Of a stretch of DNA of 64,000 nucleotides, positions 36,236-55,155 are shown in pieces. The notes under the pieces were generated by a model, which was not told the origin of the DNA, made no database searches, and worked only from the letters and a program-made list of their open reading frames with translations. The stretch is from Tetracentron sinense (taxonomy: Eukaryota; Streptophyta; Magnoliopsida; Trochodendrales; Trochodendraceae): the NCBI GenBank assembly GCA_015143295.1, contig CM026562.1, positions 9,638,041-9,702,040 of the forward strand, given 5' to 3'. The first letter of the stretch is position 1. Every line of letters begins with the position of its first letter. The translations under genes and the position numbers were made by a program.

Positions 36236-37119
36236 GCTGACCGCGTGGTTAGTTTTCCATTTCCCAATCAAAAAATGTCCCATTTACAAGTCCAAATGTT
36301 TCTCGTTATGGGTAAGTTTCAATGTTTTTGTTCTTTTTTAAATGAATAAAACTTACATAATTAAGGGAAAAGATATTCCTTTATCATAAGTGTTAACCTA
36401 TGTAATCAAGACAATTGTCGGACGCTCCACGCATATGATTCAAGAGGGCTGTGCACGCTGATTCTGGAGGGTGACTCAAAAATCCTCTTAGATGTGAACA
36501 TGGAGAAAAGTAAATTCCGTCACTGGGCAATGAATATGAAAAATTAAACATGTGAAAAATAAATCAATACAGCTTTTCTTCTGAAAATAGGTCTTGAATT
36601 CAATAGGATCCAAAACTTGATTCCCATTAGCACATGTGAATGCAGTCTTTTTCTAGAGCATCATACTAGTTTTCTAGCCATTAACATTCAAGCTAATCAA
36701 CAAACTGTTTCTATCAAAGGCCAGTTTTCTCTGAATCTGATTCCAGGCCAACTTATAACACACCCAAAACTGAAACGATTAAAAGCAAGACGGAACGAGT
36801 CAAAGTAAAAGGTAGAAGATCTGAAAACATAATAACTAGGTGATCAAGGCGACATCACTGATAAGTTACATTTGATAATAAAACAAGAAGCAAGTGTAAG
36901 GACAGGACATATACCTAACAAATCTCTAACTCATTGTTATACATAGTTCAGAAAAGAACTAACCCTATAACCAATCAGATGTCTACTCATTGCTATACAT
37001 AGCTCAGAAACATATATCGGACCCCACCGTCCGAATAGGAGCTTGCAACCAGACTATGGGTATGCAAAAAAATTAACATTCAGACGTGCAGAATGTGTAT
37101 GAAAAACCTCCGAGAACAC
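36236..37119. other. Downstream flank of FAR1-family locus
   Basis: No clear gene. A ~56-bp tandem duplication occurs near 36930-37015 (CTCATTG.TATACATAG.TCAGAAA twice). It may contain terminal exon or UTR of the FAR1-family gene; no stop-bearing terminal exon could be identified. Confidence 0.4.
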
Positions 37120-38777
37120 CATTGCATGCATTCTGGTCTTGGTTGTTGGTTCTGATAAGTCAAACAAGCCCAAAAACATGCCTATAATTCTCCGATAAGA
37201 GACAAAATCAGTTAAAATACTTGAGAAAGATATTACTGTTGTGACACAAGCACAATGGAAAGCATTGGAATCTCAAACCCTCTCTTTGAAGTTTTATTTA
37301 AAGCCAAACTAGTTGCTCACTCTCAACACAGTTGTCGAGTCAAATTACCCCTGCAACACATTTAAAACCTAGTATTAGCAGATTATAGAATCGGTGAAGT
37401 GTTAAAAACATAGCAAAAGGAACATTTTCTAGGCAACTAAAATTCAACCTTATGTGGGAGGCTCTGTCGCATTTCAGACTGGTCGGTAATAATTGGTTCC
37501 GATAAGTCAAAAAGGCGCTGTAATACGAATAAATTTATTTATATTTTATAAGAGACCAACTTGTTGAAGTAGTTGGTACACAACATTGTCATAGGAAAAG
37601 AAAAAGTTAAGGCATTCTAAATTCAAACCCTTGGAAGAAAATTCTGATATGTGCCAAATTGTTCGCCAAATCTCAGTTCAGGTGTTGATTCTTGCCCCTT
37701 AAAATTTTTTGAAAATCCAGTATAAGAAACAAGCAAAAGCAATTAAAGAAGGTAATGCAAAATTAACAATAGGAACAGGTGCCAGATCACAAGATTTCAA
37801 ACCCTGTGTTGAATGCTCATGCTAGACTGGCTGCCCACTATTGGATCTGATAAGTCAAAATGCCACTGTAATACGTAAAAGAAACGCAGTTGCTGTTACA
37901 ATTATATTGTATGCACAAGATAATCATAAGAGACAATTTTACGATGTTAGAATTTCAAACCTTCTGCTGGAAGTTCTTTTGTGTGCCAAATTGGTTGCCA
38001 GCCCTCAACTCAGTTGACGAGTTCCAGTCCTTCGACAATTAAATATCCAGTATAAGCAAACTAAGAAAGGCAATTAAATTAGACAATACAAAAGCAACAA
38101 TGGGGCTAGGTGAAAGATGACAATATGTCAAACCATAGGTAGGATGCTCATGCCAGGCTGGTTGCTGATTATTGATTTTGATAAGTTAAAATGGCACTGA
38201 CACATGTAAATTTCTTTATTAAGACACAAAATAAGTTGAAGTAGTTGGTATAAAAAAATATCATAGAAAAAAAAGAAGCAGCATGTTTTTGAGGCATGAG
38301 CTAACACCCTCTGTTGTAAGTTTTGTTGTGGACCAAAAGGTTTGCCAACTATCAAGTCAGGTGTTGTGTCTTGTTCCTCTAAGAAATTCAGAAATGCGGT
38401 GCAGATAAACTAACAAAAGCAGTTAACGTAGACAACAAAAAACTAACAAAAGGAACAGATATAAAATGGAAAATTTTCAAACCGTGTATTGGACACTGAC
38501 ACCTGACTGGTTGCGATTTGTTGGTACTGAGAAGTCAAGCTGGCATGAGTAATAGATGTAAGTTTTCTTAATAAGAGACAAATCAGTTAAAGTCCTTGGT
38601 ATGCACAACGCATTCATAAAGGAAGCACGAGTATAAGCTGTAAGGATTTCAAACCGTTTGTTGGAAGCCTTCTTGCACGATAGATGGGCCGTGAACTCTC
38701 AAGTCAGGCGCCTGTAACAAAACTTACAATTAATATAAGCAAACTATTGAAAATAAATAAATAAATAAATTAAAAAA

Positions 38778-38926
38778 ACCCGCATGGGTAGGGTTCCGGT
38801 CTTGGGAGAGATCCCCAAGGTCTCGAGTTCAACTCCTCCCGGGCTTACCCAATGCATGTGGTTTGTGGGTGATTACGTGCATTCGAAGGGACTAGTCCTT
38901 GTCAGGGTTGGGACACCTTCCGTTAC

Positions 38927-38937
<11 letters not shown>
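38778..38937 (+). mobile_element. tRNA-derived SINE inside the cassette array
   Basis: GGTCTCGAGTTCAACTCC (38819-38836) resembles a pol III box B, preceded by a CGCATGGGTAGGGTTCCGG head and followed by a body ending CCTTCCGTTACCAAA and a (CA)n tail (38933-38973). It enlarges one repeat interval of the array by about 230 bp. Confidence 0.55.
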
Positions 38938-38972
<35 letters not shown>

Positions 38973-38973
38973 A
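38933..38973. repeat. (CA)n microsatellite
   Basis: About 19 CA units with one AA interruption, at the end of the SINE. Confidence 0.9.
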
Positions 38974-39751
38974 GTACGAATAGACATTGGGTATGAATGA
39001 TAAGATATCAATGTTCCATACCACATCTTGCATGCTCATACTGAACTGGTTGCCAATTGTTGGTTCTGACAAGTCAAGCTGGCATGGTGATACATGTAAA
39101 TTTTTTGAAGAAAGACAAAAATCAGTTTAAGTACTTCACACAACACTATCGAAAGAGGGGTGAGATTTCAAACCCTTTGTTGGAAGTTCTGTTGTGTGCC
39201 AGACTGGTTACCAACTCTCAACTCAGTAGTTGAGTCAAATTGTCCCTGTAACAAATATAAATACATAGGATAAGCAAACAAAGCAATTCAAGTAACAATG
39301 CAAGCCTAAGAAGAGGAATGTGTTTATGGTGAAAGTAGTTCTGGGCCTGTAATATGAGTAGATTCTCTTGCAAGAAATGAAAGCAATTAAAATACACTTG
39401 GTGGACAACATTGTCATAAAAGAAGTACAAATCTAAGGGGTTAGAATTTCAAACCCTTTGTTGGATGATATGTTGTGTGCAGAACTGATTTCCTATCCTC
39501 AACTCAGTTGGATCGAATTGTTCCTGCAATAATGTAAAGATCTCCTATGACAAGACATCTAAAATAAAGTAGACAAACAGTTTTAACTTTTAAGAAACAT
39601 GATACTATAAGATGACAAAATTCTAAACTGCATGCAAAGCTCTCCTGCATGCTACCCTGGCTGCCAAGACTTGGAGTTTTAGGAACAACTTATAGTTATA
39701 AAACAGAGAGAAAAAAAAGTCATATTAAGAATATGTATTGAATCATTCCCG

Positions 39752-42154
39752 TTATTGTGAATGCACCTTTTGGCAAGTTGATATAGTGTGACCAGGCTCC
39801 TTGCATATGCTGCACATCTCACCCTTTGCTTTTGCTACATTTATTTCCTCTGTGATGGCTATGTTTCTCTCTGATGAAGATTCTGATATCTGTCCTGTTG
39901 GGCAAACTCTTTTGGTCACTTGTAAAGGATCAGATGCACGAGTGCATCTAGTAATACTTGTCTGAGGTATCACAAGCAGCTCGTTCATTCCACTGCTTTC
40001 ACAGGCATTACTATTGTTACTACTACAAGCAACATTTCTCTGTGTGCACACTTTGTCCACATGTGATTCACTTCTTTTACGAGTGTTACGACTACTGCTA
40101 CAAGGCGTAGCCCCAGATTGCATGTCTGTGACGACAAGGTCATTTCGATTGCGAAGATTAAACAATGTCTCTTGTAATGCTTGTAAAGCAACCTCATAGG
40201 TGTGCTCAGATATGGCTGCTTCCTCCACAATTTGAATGATTCGTATGTATAGATCATTATGACGATGTACTTCATTACCAATTCCCACATCACTAGAGCA
40301 ATAATCCAAACACGTGTGTTTAAAATCCTTCCTCCAACGTGAGAGAATGTAACGACATGGAACCTCATCTACATCATTCTCATTAAGGACATATAATGCA
40401 TGTCTACAAAGAAAGCCTTTGAACTGAAACAAACGACAAATGCAATGAACTTCTACTTCAGTTTTATTAAAATGAACTTCATATGTCTTGGGCCCCAAAC
40501 TGCTACCATCCTTGGCAAAACTACGCTCTTTCACCATATAAGTAATAATTGGTCCATCAACCTTAACTTGTAAGATGTTAAAGCAAAGAGACATACCACT
40601 TACCTCAGCTTGGAATTTATTAAATATACCTTTTGTGTATATTTTGGCGAGCTGTCCCTCAAAACAACAGTTGAATTTTAGAACAGGAACTGTATGGAAT
40701 GATTCAAAATCTGCCTGGATTTCCTTCTTGTAGTTACTTTGTAAAACTAACTCGTACTTATCAAGAAAGTCTTTCAAAGAAGTCTTGGGATAAACAAATC
40801 CATCAAAAAAGACATTGAGAGTCTCATTACGTTGGCTAGTGGACATTCCTGCATAAAATGTGTCCTTTACAAAAACTGGGACCCATTTTTGTCGATTTTC
40901 ATATACCATTCGGAGCCATTCATTATCTGCAAGTCCATAACCATTGATCATATTCTCCCAAGCCATTTCAAAGTCACCGACTCTTTTAGAGTCATAAACT
41001 GCATTTTTTAGCACCTTCTTGACTGCTTTATAATCACTTAATCCTCCCAATTTGTCTGGAAGTTTATTCATGATGTGCCACAAGCAGAGACGATGACAGG
41101 CTTCAGGAAACACCTCAGTAGTTGCTCCTTGAATAGACCCACACTGATCTGTAATTATGGCATTTGGAAGGTGTCCTGATACTGATTTTAACCATGCCTT
41201 AAACAACCAAATGAATGACTCTCTTGTCTCATCTGCCAGTAAACCACAGCCTAGCAACACCGATTGCCCATGATGGTTCACTCCCAAAAAATAAACAAGT
41301 GGCATGTCGTATTTGTTTGTCAAACACGTAGTGTCTAACATGATTATGTCACCAAAGTAAGCACATGCTGCCCTAGACCGAGCATCAGCCCAGAACACAT
41401 TCCTTAAACATCCTTCTTCGTCAAGATCGATTACGTAAAAGAAGGCAGGATTCTTAAACTGCATGCGACTAAAAAATTGATGAATGGCCTCTGAATCTCC
41501 TTCTCCAAGCTTCAGCCACCTTGATGGATCAATACAAGTGTAGCATTCTTTTACCCAAAATGGTAAGTTTTCATGTCCCCCTGAGTCTACAACCAAGGTT
41601 GGGTACGACTTAGTCAACATTTTTCTTGCTTCATAATTGGATTGTGAACTCCTCTTACTTCCACCATCCAAGTGCTTATTGGATATAGGGAAACGTTCTG
41701 ATGGATTAAGTGGATGGTTGTGTTCAATTATAGTTTCGACCACTTTCCACTTTTTAGAGTCTGTTAGCTTTAGCCTCATCCTTGCTTTACAATCACTTCT
41801 CAAATCCGGTCTTGGTAAATCGGGTGTTTTTTCTATTCGTCTACTAAAACCCTCCTTGTTACATGTATATAAGACATGGTACAACTCAGAAGTACTCTTT
41901 CTTGCATGTGAGGATTTTAGTTTTGTGGCAAATCCTATGGTCTCAGCATAGAGATTGTAGGCCTCATAAGCTGATTCTTTGGTTTCAAACTCCATTCCAA
42001 CATTAGGAGCTCTATTTGAATCTCCTTCAGTTGTAAAGGGTTCCACAATAGAATAATCTTCTTCCAACTCATGGTCACCTGGATAAAAATTTGTGGTACA
42101 TTCTCCATCTAATCTGTCATTCCTTTCCACTCCTTCCTCTATTAACATCTCCAT
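39752..42154 (-). CDS. FAR1-RELATED SEQUENCE family protein (FRS5-like), 800 residues
   Basis: One uninterrupted frame in the main exon. Domains: FAR1 DNA-binding zinc-finger region about 54-150 (GMEFETKESAYEAYNLYA, CNKEGFS, DCKARMRLKL, EHNHPLNP); MULE transposase-like core about 265-365 (IMLDTTCLTNKYDMPL with Asp, AIITDQCGSI with Asp, HRLCLWHI); SWIM zinc finger C571, C573, C583, H585; C-terminal CCHC knuckle C781, C784, H789, C794. The family descends from Mutator-like transposases and acts as nuclear transcription factors, for example in far-red signalling. ATG at 42154 is the first in frame; the frame is open upstream but lacks another ATG. TAA follows ...CQKVHSQ, but AAAAG|GTGCAT at 39767 is a possible phase-0 donor into the cassette array. 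No TIRs or duplication flank it, so it is read as a host gene. Confidence 0.92.
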   Translation of the reverse strand: MEMLIEEGVERNDRLDGECTTNFYPGDHELEEDYSIVEPFTTEGDSNRAPNVGMEFETKESAYEAYNLYAETIGFATKLKSSHARKSTSELYHVLYTCNKEGFSRRIEKTPDLPRPDLRSDCKARMRLKLTDSKKWKVVETIIEHNHPLNPSERFPISNKHLDGGSKRSSQSNYEARKMLTKSYPTLVVDSGGHENLPFWVKECYTCIDPSRWLKLGEGDSEAIHQFFSRMQFKNPAFFYVIDLDEEGCLRNVFWADARSRAACAYFGDIIMLDTTCLTNKYDMPLVYFLGVNHHGQSVLLGCGLLADETRESFIWLFKAWLKSVSGHLPNAIITDQCGSIQGATTEVFPEACHRLCLWHIMNKLPDKLGGLSDYKAVKKVLKNAVYDSKRVGDFEMAWENMINGYGLADNEWLRMVYENRQKWVPVFVKDTFYAGMSTSQRNETLNVFFDGFVYPKTSLKDFLDKYELVLQSNYKKEIQADFESFHTVPVLKFNCCFEGQLAKIYTKGIFNKFQAEVSGMSLCFNILQVKVDGPIITYMVKERSFAKDGSSLGPKTYEVHFNKTEVEVHCICRLFQFKGFLCRHALYVLNENDVDEVPCRYILSRWRKDFKHTCLDYCSSDVGIGNEVHRHNDLYIRIIQIVEEAAISEHTYEVALQALQETLFNLRNRNDLVVTDMQSGATPCSSSRNTRKRSESHVDKVCTQRNVACSSNNSNACESSGMNELLVIPQTSITRCTRASDPLQVTKRVCPTGQISESSSERNIAITEEINVAKAKGEMCSICKEPGHTISTCQKVHSQ

Positions 42155-46040: not shown

Positions 46041-46250
46041 AATATTAGTACTAGCAAACACCCCGTGCGATGCAAAGATAAAAACAACAAAAGAAAATGC
46101 TAGAACATGAGAGTATTTTCAAGAAGTTAACAGTTGTAATGGGTAAATTTCGTAAAAACCTAAGTATGGTAACAACGAGCTTGTCTTCAGTGTGGTGTTA
46201 TCGTTTGAGCTCATTTCCGTCGTCTCCTCGGCAACGGGCCCGTGGTCGTA

Positions 46251-46458
46251 TGAACGACGAGAACGTGGTCCCATGAACGACGATCACGTCTTCACTCTGA
46301 CGACGGACCCGTGGTCTTGTGAACGACGATCACGTCTTCACTCTGACGACGGACCCGTGGTCTTGTGAACGACGATCACGTCCTCACTCTGGCAACGGAC
46401 CCGTGGTCTCGTGAACGACGATCACGTCTTTATTCTGACGACGTACCCGTCATCTTAT
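46251..46458 (+). repeat. 46-bp tandem repeats in the solo LTR
   Basis: Four 46-bp units start at 46275, 46321, 46367 and 46413 (GAACGACGATCACGTCTTCA...), with a shortened unit at 46251. Located in U3, upstream of the TATA box. Confidence 0.95.
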
Positions 46459-46764
46459 TGTCCACGATCGCGTATCCTAAACACGTAATGAGATCTGGCG
46501 TTGCTGCCCAGTCGCCTGGGACTGATCCTACCTCTACGATGGTAGGTGGGTAACATTGTCTTGGCATTAAATGACATTTAATGCTGTATTTAATGTCAGT
46601 CACCTCGGACGAGTTCCTACTCTTTGCCTGCTCTTTTTGTGTGCAGATGCGCGTGCAGTACGAATGACCGGGAGATCTATCTAAAATGATTACTGAAGTA
46701 CACATCAGGGATTCGAGGTATGCATGGACATCAATGGGTGCCTATGGCCATGGCAAAGGTGGTC

Positions 46765-46772: not shown

Positions 46773-47221
46773 CCTGTGAAGAACAGTGTAAGGGGGACGA
46801 AAAATTGGGAGAGCTAAGACCTTCGAACTCTCTATTCTATTCTTACTGTTCATCATCTCCTACACCTACTGACTTAATCATCGGAGTACAGGTCAGGGTA
46901 TCACACCCTCCACTCCAATCTTCTACCAGTACATCAGAACTTGGGAGGAGCTGCTGCTGACGCGTGTCCTTTCGGTAATTTTCCCCCACAACAGTACAAT
47001 TGAATTCCTTATTCCTTTGGACTTATATCCATACATTAGACTATAGAGTATCAAACTATCCATTATGAGGTTCACACTTCAGTAAAAATTGTTGTGGGTT
47101 CCTTCAAAGTGCACATTCATGAATATTTCACGTCAATCAAATTACTAAGGCTGAGTGTAAAATTCTAACAGGAAACAAAAATGGAAGCAAAGTTTCACTT
47201 GATAACAAAGTAACTAAGTCA

Positions 47222-47479
47222 ATAAGTTACATAACTGTAAAAGAGAAAATCATAAGGGCACAAGTGAAGAAAAAATTATATTTCACCTGGACCTAAAACA
47301 CATTCTAAAAAATATATTACATGAATCTAGGACCTCTCAAGAATATAGAAATAAGTTACATAACTGTAAAAGAGAAAATCATAAGGGCACAAGTGAAGAA
47401 AAAATTATATTTCACCTGGACCTAAAACACATTCTAAAAAATATATTACATGAATCTAGGACCTCTCAAGAATATAGAA
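47222..47479. repeat. 129-bp perfect tandem duplication
   Basis: 47222-47350 and 47351-47479 are identical (starting ATAAGTTACATAACTGTAAA). No mismatch seen, so the event is recent or the locus is misassembled. Confidence 0.95.
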
Positions 47480-48156
47480 ATTCTTAGAGAAATAACAAAG
47501 AATGATTGGTCCACCTATATATGTAGAGCAATTACAGAGATGGAGAGAGGTCTATACATGGTGAGAGAAAGATATGAGCAACAAAAAGAAAAAACGGAAA
47601 AAGAGAGAGAAAGAGAGGTGATGCAGGAGTAGGTATTTAAAATTTTATTAAGATGAAAAGTTAGTTGTCCAAATTTTTTTTTTTTTTTTGGTTAACGTAA
47701 CAACACCCCAAGGCAAGCTATAGTCATGAGGAAGAAGACCACACACATGCACTCACGTGCGCGCGCACACACACGCAAACACACAACACACAACACACAA
47801 TCCAAATAAGCTTCACCCAAACACTCCTCAAAACGGATACCAACTGTTTGAGGCGTGATGGGCTGGTAGTCCAATTTGAACAATGTTAAATGCTAATACT
47901 GCATTGATCAATTCATACAAACACCATATTAAAATTGAAAAGAGAAACCCAAATAAATCAACATATGATCTACTTCTTTCTCTGCAATGTTGAGGTATCA
48001 CAGCTCATAGAAATTGCGGTATTTGTTGATTGCAATGACTCAGCAGCCAGTTTCTCAAGTTGTGCTGAAAATGCCAAAAGAAAATGTGTGAAATAAATGA
48101 AAAATATTGAAGAAAAAATTGACAAAAAATATAATGATGGTACAAAATGTAATAGT
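47480..48156. other. Helitron interior, no gene seen
   Basis: Purine-rich (GAGAGA) stretch, a 16-T run, and a CACACA/GCGCGC stretch (47736-47798). ORF 47450-47632 lies over the duplication and has no known domain. Confidence 0.5.
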
Positions 48157-54861: not shown

Positions 54862-55085
54862 ATGATAAACATTCATCAGAATGGGTAGAAGCCATCAAGG
54901 TGTCTTCAGATATCCCTCCTGATGAGTTTTCATGGAGGAAGTATAGGCATAAGCCAATCAAGGGTTCTCCACGCGATAGGAGATATTGTAAGTGTAACAA
55001 CATGAGAGATGCCCAGCAAGGAAACATGTCTTACGAAGGTGAGCATAACCATTGTAGGCTATTATCACAATTTGCTCACACATAG
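54862..55085 (+). pseudogene. WRKY (group IId-like) domain fragment
   Basis: The frame reads [20 protein letters not shown], then [10 protein letters not shown] and YEGEHNH. The order and spacing match the group IId WRKY domain. WRKYGQK has become WRKYRHK, the second zinc Cys is gone, and about 17 residues before the HxH end are missing. The intron that normally interrupts this domain before GYYKC is absent, so the source may have been spliced RNA. WRKY proteins bind W-box DNA; this piece cannot fold a zinc site and has no N-terminal protein part. Confidence 0.75.
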
Positions 55086-55155
55086 ACTTTGTGGAAGGTG
55101 AGCATAACCATTGTAGGCTATTATCACAATTTGCTCACACATAGACTTTGTGGAA
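55038..55155. repeat. 59-bp perfect tandem duplication
   Basis: 55038-55096 and 55097-55155 are identical; the unit includes the last WRKY residues (GEHNHCRLL). Confidence 0.95.

Follow-up and report, generated by a model that had tools for sequence, protein, structure and literature searches.

What does a row of short, exon-like cassettes directly behind a transposase-derived gene encode, if anything? The question arises in a 64,000-nucleotide (nt) stretch of the genome of Tetracentron sinense, a tree of the order Trochodendrales (contig CM026562.1, positions 9,638,041 to 9,702,040 of the forward strand; hereafter the window), where cassettes of two types, A and B, follow a gene of the FAR1-RELATED SEQUENCE (FRS) family on its coding strand. 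FRS proteins are transposase-derived transcription factors with roles in light signalling and development. In our view the cassettes probably supply a multi-exon tail that is translated and whose kind recurs in FRS genes of this genome. Comparing sequences, we read the array in the window as the expanded form of a tail-exon array that many FRS genes of T. sinense possess.

The gene and its cassettes

The window gene is a transposase-derived FRS gene with a probable multi-exon 3' end. Its single main coding exon runs on the minus strand from an ATG at 42154 to a donor at 39767 and is open throughout its 796 codons. Pfam finds a FAR1 DNA-binding domain (PF03101, 71 bits against a cut-off of 28.1), a MULE transposase core (PF10551, 106 against 27.6) and a SWIM zinc finger (PF04434, 22.5 against 19.6), the same three domains that characterize the Arabidopsis FHY3-FAR1/FRS family. 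The knuckle-like CxxCxxxxHxxxxC end is a reading of the sequence, for which the Pfam model zf-CCHC_2 gives only E 0.14, under its cut-off. As the preliminary description had proposed, the exon ends in a phase-0 donor (AAAAG/GTGCAT) 15 nt ahead of its native stop, and if this donor is left unspliced the protein ends in VHSQ.

Thirteen cassettes, A1 to A7 and B1 to B6, were recovered behind this exon, alternating as initially described (Table 1). Eleven of them (A1-A6 and B1-B5) are 57, 63, 69 or 72 nt long, in phase 0 and free of stops, and all 11 have AG before and GT after. In eight (A1, A2, A3, B2, B3, A5, B4 and A6) the cassette is followed by GTTTGA, which also lies directly 3' of A7. The last pair has decayed: A7 holds three in-frame stops, and neither the acceptor nor the phase of B6 is preserved. 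The spacing of about 340 bp likewise holds, A cassettes lying 332-350 nt apart, with two exceptions: 519 nt where a repeat has been inserted (about 38930-38777) and 281 nt between A1 and A2, where a B slot looks to have been lost. Each intact cassette would add 19-24 residues, and glutamine makes up 15% of the joined tail. The two types are themselves related, since the A profile matches B4 (E 7.5e-6) and the B profile matches A2 (E 3.2e-5). Array members match their own profiles by construction; across the rest of the window the cassette profiles found nothing under E 0.5. The repeat insert at 38777-38930 has at least 39 further scored matches in the genome at 83-91% identity, all falling within about 38766-38934 of the window, and it adjoins a TG repeat.

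Three public gene models of T. sinense contain cassette junctions. HHK36_017841 (P0001) maps letter for letter onto the locus in three exons: the main exon, A1 and A2, followed by a valine and the TGA inside the GTTTGA donor, and without the other nine intact cassettes. The idea that an unused GTTTGA donor adds one valine and then a stop thus matches the end of an existing model. When the tail was used as a protein query, P0001 was the sole match (one of 769 candidates), at 99% identity over 28% of the query. In the paralogue models P0017 (locus L018) and P0019 (locus L022), cassettes are likewise added to the main exon between whole codons; each model has one junction whose place could shift by a codon, and the final 13 residues of P0019 are unplaced. 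A further paralogue model, P0016 (locus L014), joins no cassette. The HHK36 models appear to be the annotation of the assembly in PMC7709256, which was made with MAKER from assembled transcripts, ab initio prediction and protein homology. With these three sources, the model junctions may rest on RNA or on prediction.

Coding signals within the array

The preliminary description had taken preserved reading frames as a sign of coding constraint. The frame is indeed kept in most copies (11 of 13 open in phase 0), and when the 11 intact cassettes are read in frames 2 and 3, 20 of the 22 readings meet a stop. When dimers D1-D5 were aligned, with A1 left out and exon bounds set by the analyst, pairwise exon gaps were multiples of three in 11 of 11 cases, corresponding to about three events, against 10 of 72 for intron gaps. 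Pairs involving the decayed D6 also had exon gaps of 1, 2, 8 and 14 nt. Identity among D1-D5 is 0.58-0.74 in exons and 0.50-0.62 in introns, and near-equal in several pairs with D2. The cassettes (A7 and B6 included) have a GC content of 0.44 and a T content of 0.23, compared with 0.34 and 0.42 in the inter-cassette stretches (repeat insert included); GC-richer exons between T-rich introns are the usual contrast in plants.

The ratio of nonsynonymous to synonymous differences per site (pN/pS) is 0.62 for type A (codon bootstrap 0.44-0.86; A7 left out) and 0.84 for type B (0.51-1.41; B6 left out), with intervals that are rough because the pairwise comparisons are not independent. The proposed constraint is therefore seen in type A; for type B, neutrality is not rejected.

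These values bear on whether the array was once coding and is now mostly a noncoding 3' untranslated region, the protein ending at VHSQ or after A1-A2. Such decay would account for the state of A7 and B6, for the apparent loss of the B slot between A1 and A2, for a type B indistinguishable from neutral and for the high divergence. However, in 11 cassettes the open frame and both splice sites have survived although synonymous differences have reached 0.53 per site in type A and 0.38 in type B, and their indels come in threes. We regard this explanation as unlikely and prefer a tail that is still translated.

Table 1. Features of the FRS gene and its cassette array, in window coordinates and in order of transcription
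Feature	Positions	Strand	Length (nt)	Sequence	Donor	Remarks
Main exon	39767..42154	-				FAR1 DNA-binding, MULE transposase and SWIM domains; knuckle-like CxxCxxxxHxxxxC end as read from the sequence; from Pfam and public-model mapping
Unspliced extension	39752..39766	-				VHSQ-stop; alternative end of main reading frame
Cassette A1	39455..39523	-	69	EQFDPTELRIGNQFCTQHIIQQR	GTTTGA	In public model
Possible remnant of lost B cassette	39306..39346	-	41			A1-A2 interval; not a multiple of three; by position, weak
Cassette A2	39174..39245	-	72	GQFDSTTELRVGNQSGTQQNFQQR	GTTTGA	In public model, with Val-stop
Cassette B1	39022..39078	-	57	LDLSEPTIGNQFSMSMQDV	GTATGG	
High-copy repeat	38777..38930	-				B1-A3 intron
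Cassette A3	38655..38711	-	57	APDLRVHGPSIVQEGFQQT	GTTTGA	Shorter 5' end
Cassette B2	38483..38539	-	57	LDFSVPTNRNQSGVSVQYT	GTTTGA	
Cassette A4	38308..38376	-	69	EQDTTPDLIVGKPFGPQQNLQQR	GTGTTA	
Cassette B3	38134..38196	-	63	CHFNLSKSIISNQPGMSILPM	GTTTGA	
Cassette A5	37961..38029	-	69	DWNSSTELRAGNQFGTQKNFQQK	GTTTGA	
Cassette B4	37803..37865	-	63	WHFDLSDPIVGSQSSMSIQHR	GTTTGA	
Cassette A6	37629..37697	-	69	GQESTPELRFGEQFGTYQNFLPR	GTTTGA	
Cassette B5	37449..37517	-	69	RLFDLSEPIITDQSEMRQSLPHK	GTTGAA	
Cassette A7	37279..37350	-	72			Three in-frame stops; second codon TAA, the protein end if joined
Cassette B6	37108..37181	-	74			Degenerate acceptor, phase lost

Related rows behind other FRS genes

Positions 37100-38760, used as a DNA query against the 1.16-Gb assembly, matched only themselves and neighbouring cassettes on the same contig (C12); this query left out the high-copy insert, A1, A2 and B1, and the lack of other matches is no proof of rarity. 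A protein search of the genome for paralogues returned at least 55 matches (54 of 1473 candidates scored), from which we drew 30 loci: the window gene itself (L013) and 29 paralogue loci (L014-L042), each with 1.5 kb of flank. A DNA profile of A1-A7 gave 39 matches at E<=1 in 20 of the 29 loci, every one of them on the sense strand and behind the matched coding region. Sixty column-shuffled decoys with real splice flanks gave none of this kind at E<=0.2, where the real profile gave 22, and several of the matches are in register with exons called separately from AG, GT and an open frame. At the protein level, when peptides were compared with a profile of the paralogue mini-exons, only one or two of 500 shuffles matched or exceeded the scores of A2, A4 and A5. 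Profile-profile comparison with these mini-exons gave a P value of 2e-4 for type A, though with a probability of 46%, and a probability of 7% for type B.

The preliminary description had named wide occurrence of the repeat outside this locus as grounds for rejecting its reading. As DNA, the searched part is found at one place; related cassettes, however, stand behind many other FRS genes of the genome, and for this reason the array, as judged by profile matches, belongs to the FRS gene family and is not confined to this gene. The nearest paralogue identified shares 60% identity with the window gene at the protein level, and this locus (L014) has no clear cassette in its 1.5-kb flank, just a B5-like stretch at E 2.3. 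That distance and the single location of the searched part of the array led us to reject the window gene as a recently mobile MULE transposon. A plasmid search gave no match, as expected.

The paralogue rows also bear on whether the array is a noncoding tandem repeat with fortuitous splice-like sites. Weak donors would be expected of such a repeat; a phase-0 frame open in 11 of 13 copies, indels in threes only, related mini-exons behind 20 of 29 paralogue loci and the gene models would not, and we disfavour this explanation as highly improbable.

The most regular rows lie at four loci that we take to be FRS5-like (L036, L038, L039 and L041). They share six mini-exon positions, 57 or 69 nt long at nearly all, with the peptide consensus GxLxSRAPTxDGYYGTQQSxQGM and introns of 103-147 nt (four of the five intervening introns measured). 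Across the six positions pN/pS is 0.45 (0.34-0.61), with position 4 taken without L041 and position 6 without L039, both irregular there; differences number 175 at third codon positions against 99 and 95 at the other two. Coding constraint on these mini-exons is thus supported. Like the window array, the FRS5-like rows are series of phase-0 mini-exons behind a main exon, mostly of exactly 69 nt, encoding glutamine-containing 23-residue peptides up to the GT, and some of their donors carry an immediate Val-stop. They differ from the 13 cassettes of the window in having at most six exons of one peptide type, without A/B alternation. Rows at L034, L035, L037 and L042 are shorter or less regular. 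The paralogue mini-exon peptides may resemble FRS tails in other angiosperms.

A genome search with the mini-exons of the L038 tail joined together produced 28 matches (E<=10), spread over C2, C3, C7, C11 and C17. Those on C3, C11, C17 and at 31.726 Mb of C2 lie behind L036, L037, L038, L039, L041 and L042; a further group lies at C2:31.712 Mb, and a match at C2:5.98 Mb (E 9.7) is probably chance. On C7 (L053:4293-4553, G000:C7), two FRS5-type mini-exon stretches follow 4.3 kb in which no FRS frame was found, which we read as an orphan or eroded array.

A midpoint-rooted tree was built from the 16 paralogues of the 30 loci that were stop-free and longer than 560 residues. Of its two deep clades, one contains the window gene, grouped with L014 at support 90/92, and the other contains the FRS5-like rows. 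Because cassette-like matches occur in both clades (e.g. L015, L021, L022; L034, L036, L038, L039, L041, L042), the clades probably separated after such a tail had arisen, as far as such short sequences can indicate. The array may have expanded more than once, since in copies of the L018 type, an FRS gene of another clade, the gene is followed by a tandem repeat with units of about 210 nt (L018:3854-4718), the last unit being used by P0017.

Five dispersed FRS-bearing copies (L015-L019, on C1388, C14, C5, C13 and C15) are 98-99% identical over about 4.9 kb; this stretch looks like a recently mobile or duplicated element carrying tail mini-exons. L026 and L029 are associated with these copies, and L026 has inverted left-end pieces. 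In a further comparison of two dispersed copies, the match continues for about 8.8 kb from a left edge near 580 of the joined piece, without reaching a right end.

Several observations weigh against a translated tail shared across the family. The MAKER models, from which the cassette junctions are taken, may be predictions. The donors are weak: of nine consensus positions, ten of the intact cassettes match five and A5 matches six, and five of nine is also the commonest score among all 173 GTs of the region. The excess of exon over intron identity is modest and absent in D2-D4, and to this is added the type B ratio given above. On the paralogue loci, the B profile has no match at E<=0.2 and four at E<=1, type B being tied to the paralogue cassettes, if at all, through its relation to type A; the eight cassettes other than A2, A4 and A5 are unremarkable among 500 shuffles; and the loci themselves are not independent, because several are near-identical copies. 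Against 124 public proteins, the A and B protein profiles gave null-level scores except for P0001; P0017, for instance, scored 2.0 bits where shuffled maxima reached 6.3. Cassette-like peptides in Tasmannia (P0080), Macadamia (P0024) and others, which also scored at null level, offer a lead only. When the P0019 tail was the protein query, all matches were to T. sinense (5 of 611 candidates), so that neither tail search found a match in another species.

A possible tail of variable length

How might such an array be used? In the mechanism we envisage, small exons in phase 0 stand in a row after the long coding exon, whose own end is also in phase 0. An A-B exon pair would have been tandemly duplicated long ago to about six pairs, of which the final one has since decayed. 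Ordinary colinear splicing would join each cassette through its own AG and GT. Translation could then end in one of two ways: at the TGA that an unused GTTTGA donor holds in frame, giving Val-stop, or, with all cassettes joined, at the stop in the second codon of A7. The protein tail would thus consist of a variable number of short repeats. The earlier suggestion that cassettes could be joined in any order fails, because linear splicing keeps their order. On this model splicing would extend beyond A2 and different numbers of cassettes would be used; many isoforms are plausible, and the tail would most likely serve as a flexible interaction or stability tail.

An account that shares this core and differs only on variable use is that all cassettes are always joined, the protein comprising the main exon and 11 cassettes and stopping in A7. 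Eleven compatible cassettes with a preserved frame, the stop offered by A7 and four paralogue arrays nearly alike in number and order speak for it, but the public model ends after A2, and the weak donors, eight of the 11 running straight into an in-frame stop, favour incomplete splicing. A constitutive tail of this sort is possible, though not what we expect. Less likely than not is the fullest version of variable use, a length-tunable FRS tail in this lineage: a 3' exon array common to the family would descend from the transposase ancestor, weak donors and built-in stops would set the repeat number, and separate clades would have undergone repeated tandem expansion. Such an array is present in recently dispersed FRS copies too.

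Among known systems, insect Dscam (PMC1397879) also has tandemly duplicated exons within one gene. In that gene the members of an array exclude one another, whereas the window cassettes can be joined consecutively, and the length of the tail could therefore vary. For the FRS family itself, the accessible text of an FHY3-FAR1 review (PMC6000157) describes no mini-exon tail and lacks the terms exon, intron, splic and isoform. Tea CsFRS-14 has more than 20 introns (PMC8002597), and the portions available of PMC10814199, PMC12112247 and PMC8002597 treat exon-intron structure in general and do not describe repeated tail exons. A literature search whose reach largely excluded subscription papers, and which drew partly on incomplete texts, found no description of repeated mini-exons in FRS genes. 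If FRS tails are indeed assembled from rows of joinable mini-exons, the annotation may often miss part of FRS C-termini, a convenient origin of isoforms would have gone unnoticed, and plants would offer, in an exon array that carries its own stops, a test case for weak donors setting protein length.

Elsewhere in the window, positions 46241-46473 hold a GC-rich tandem repeat with a 46-nt unit in about 3.8 copies. Two perfect two-copy duplications, of 129 nt at 47221-47481 and 59 nt at 55035-55155, are probably recent.

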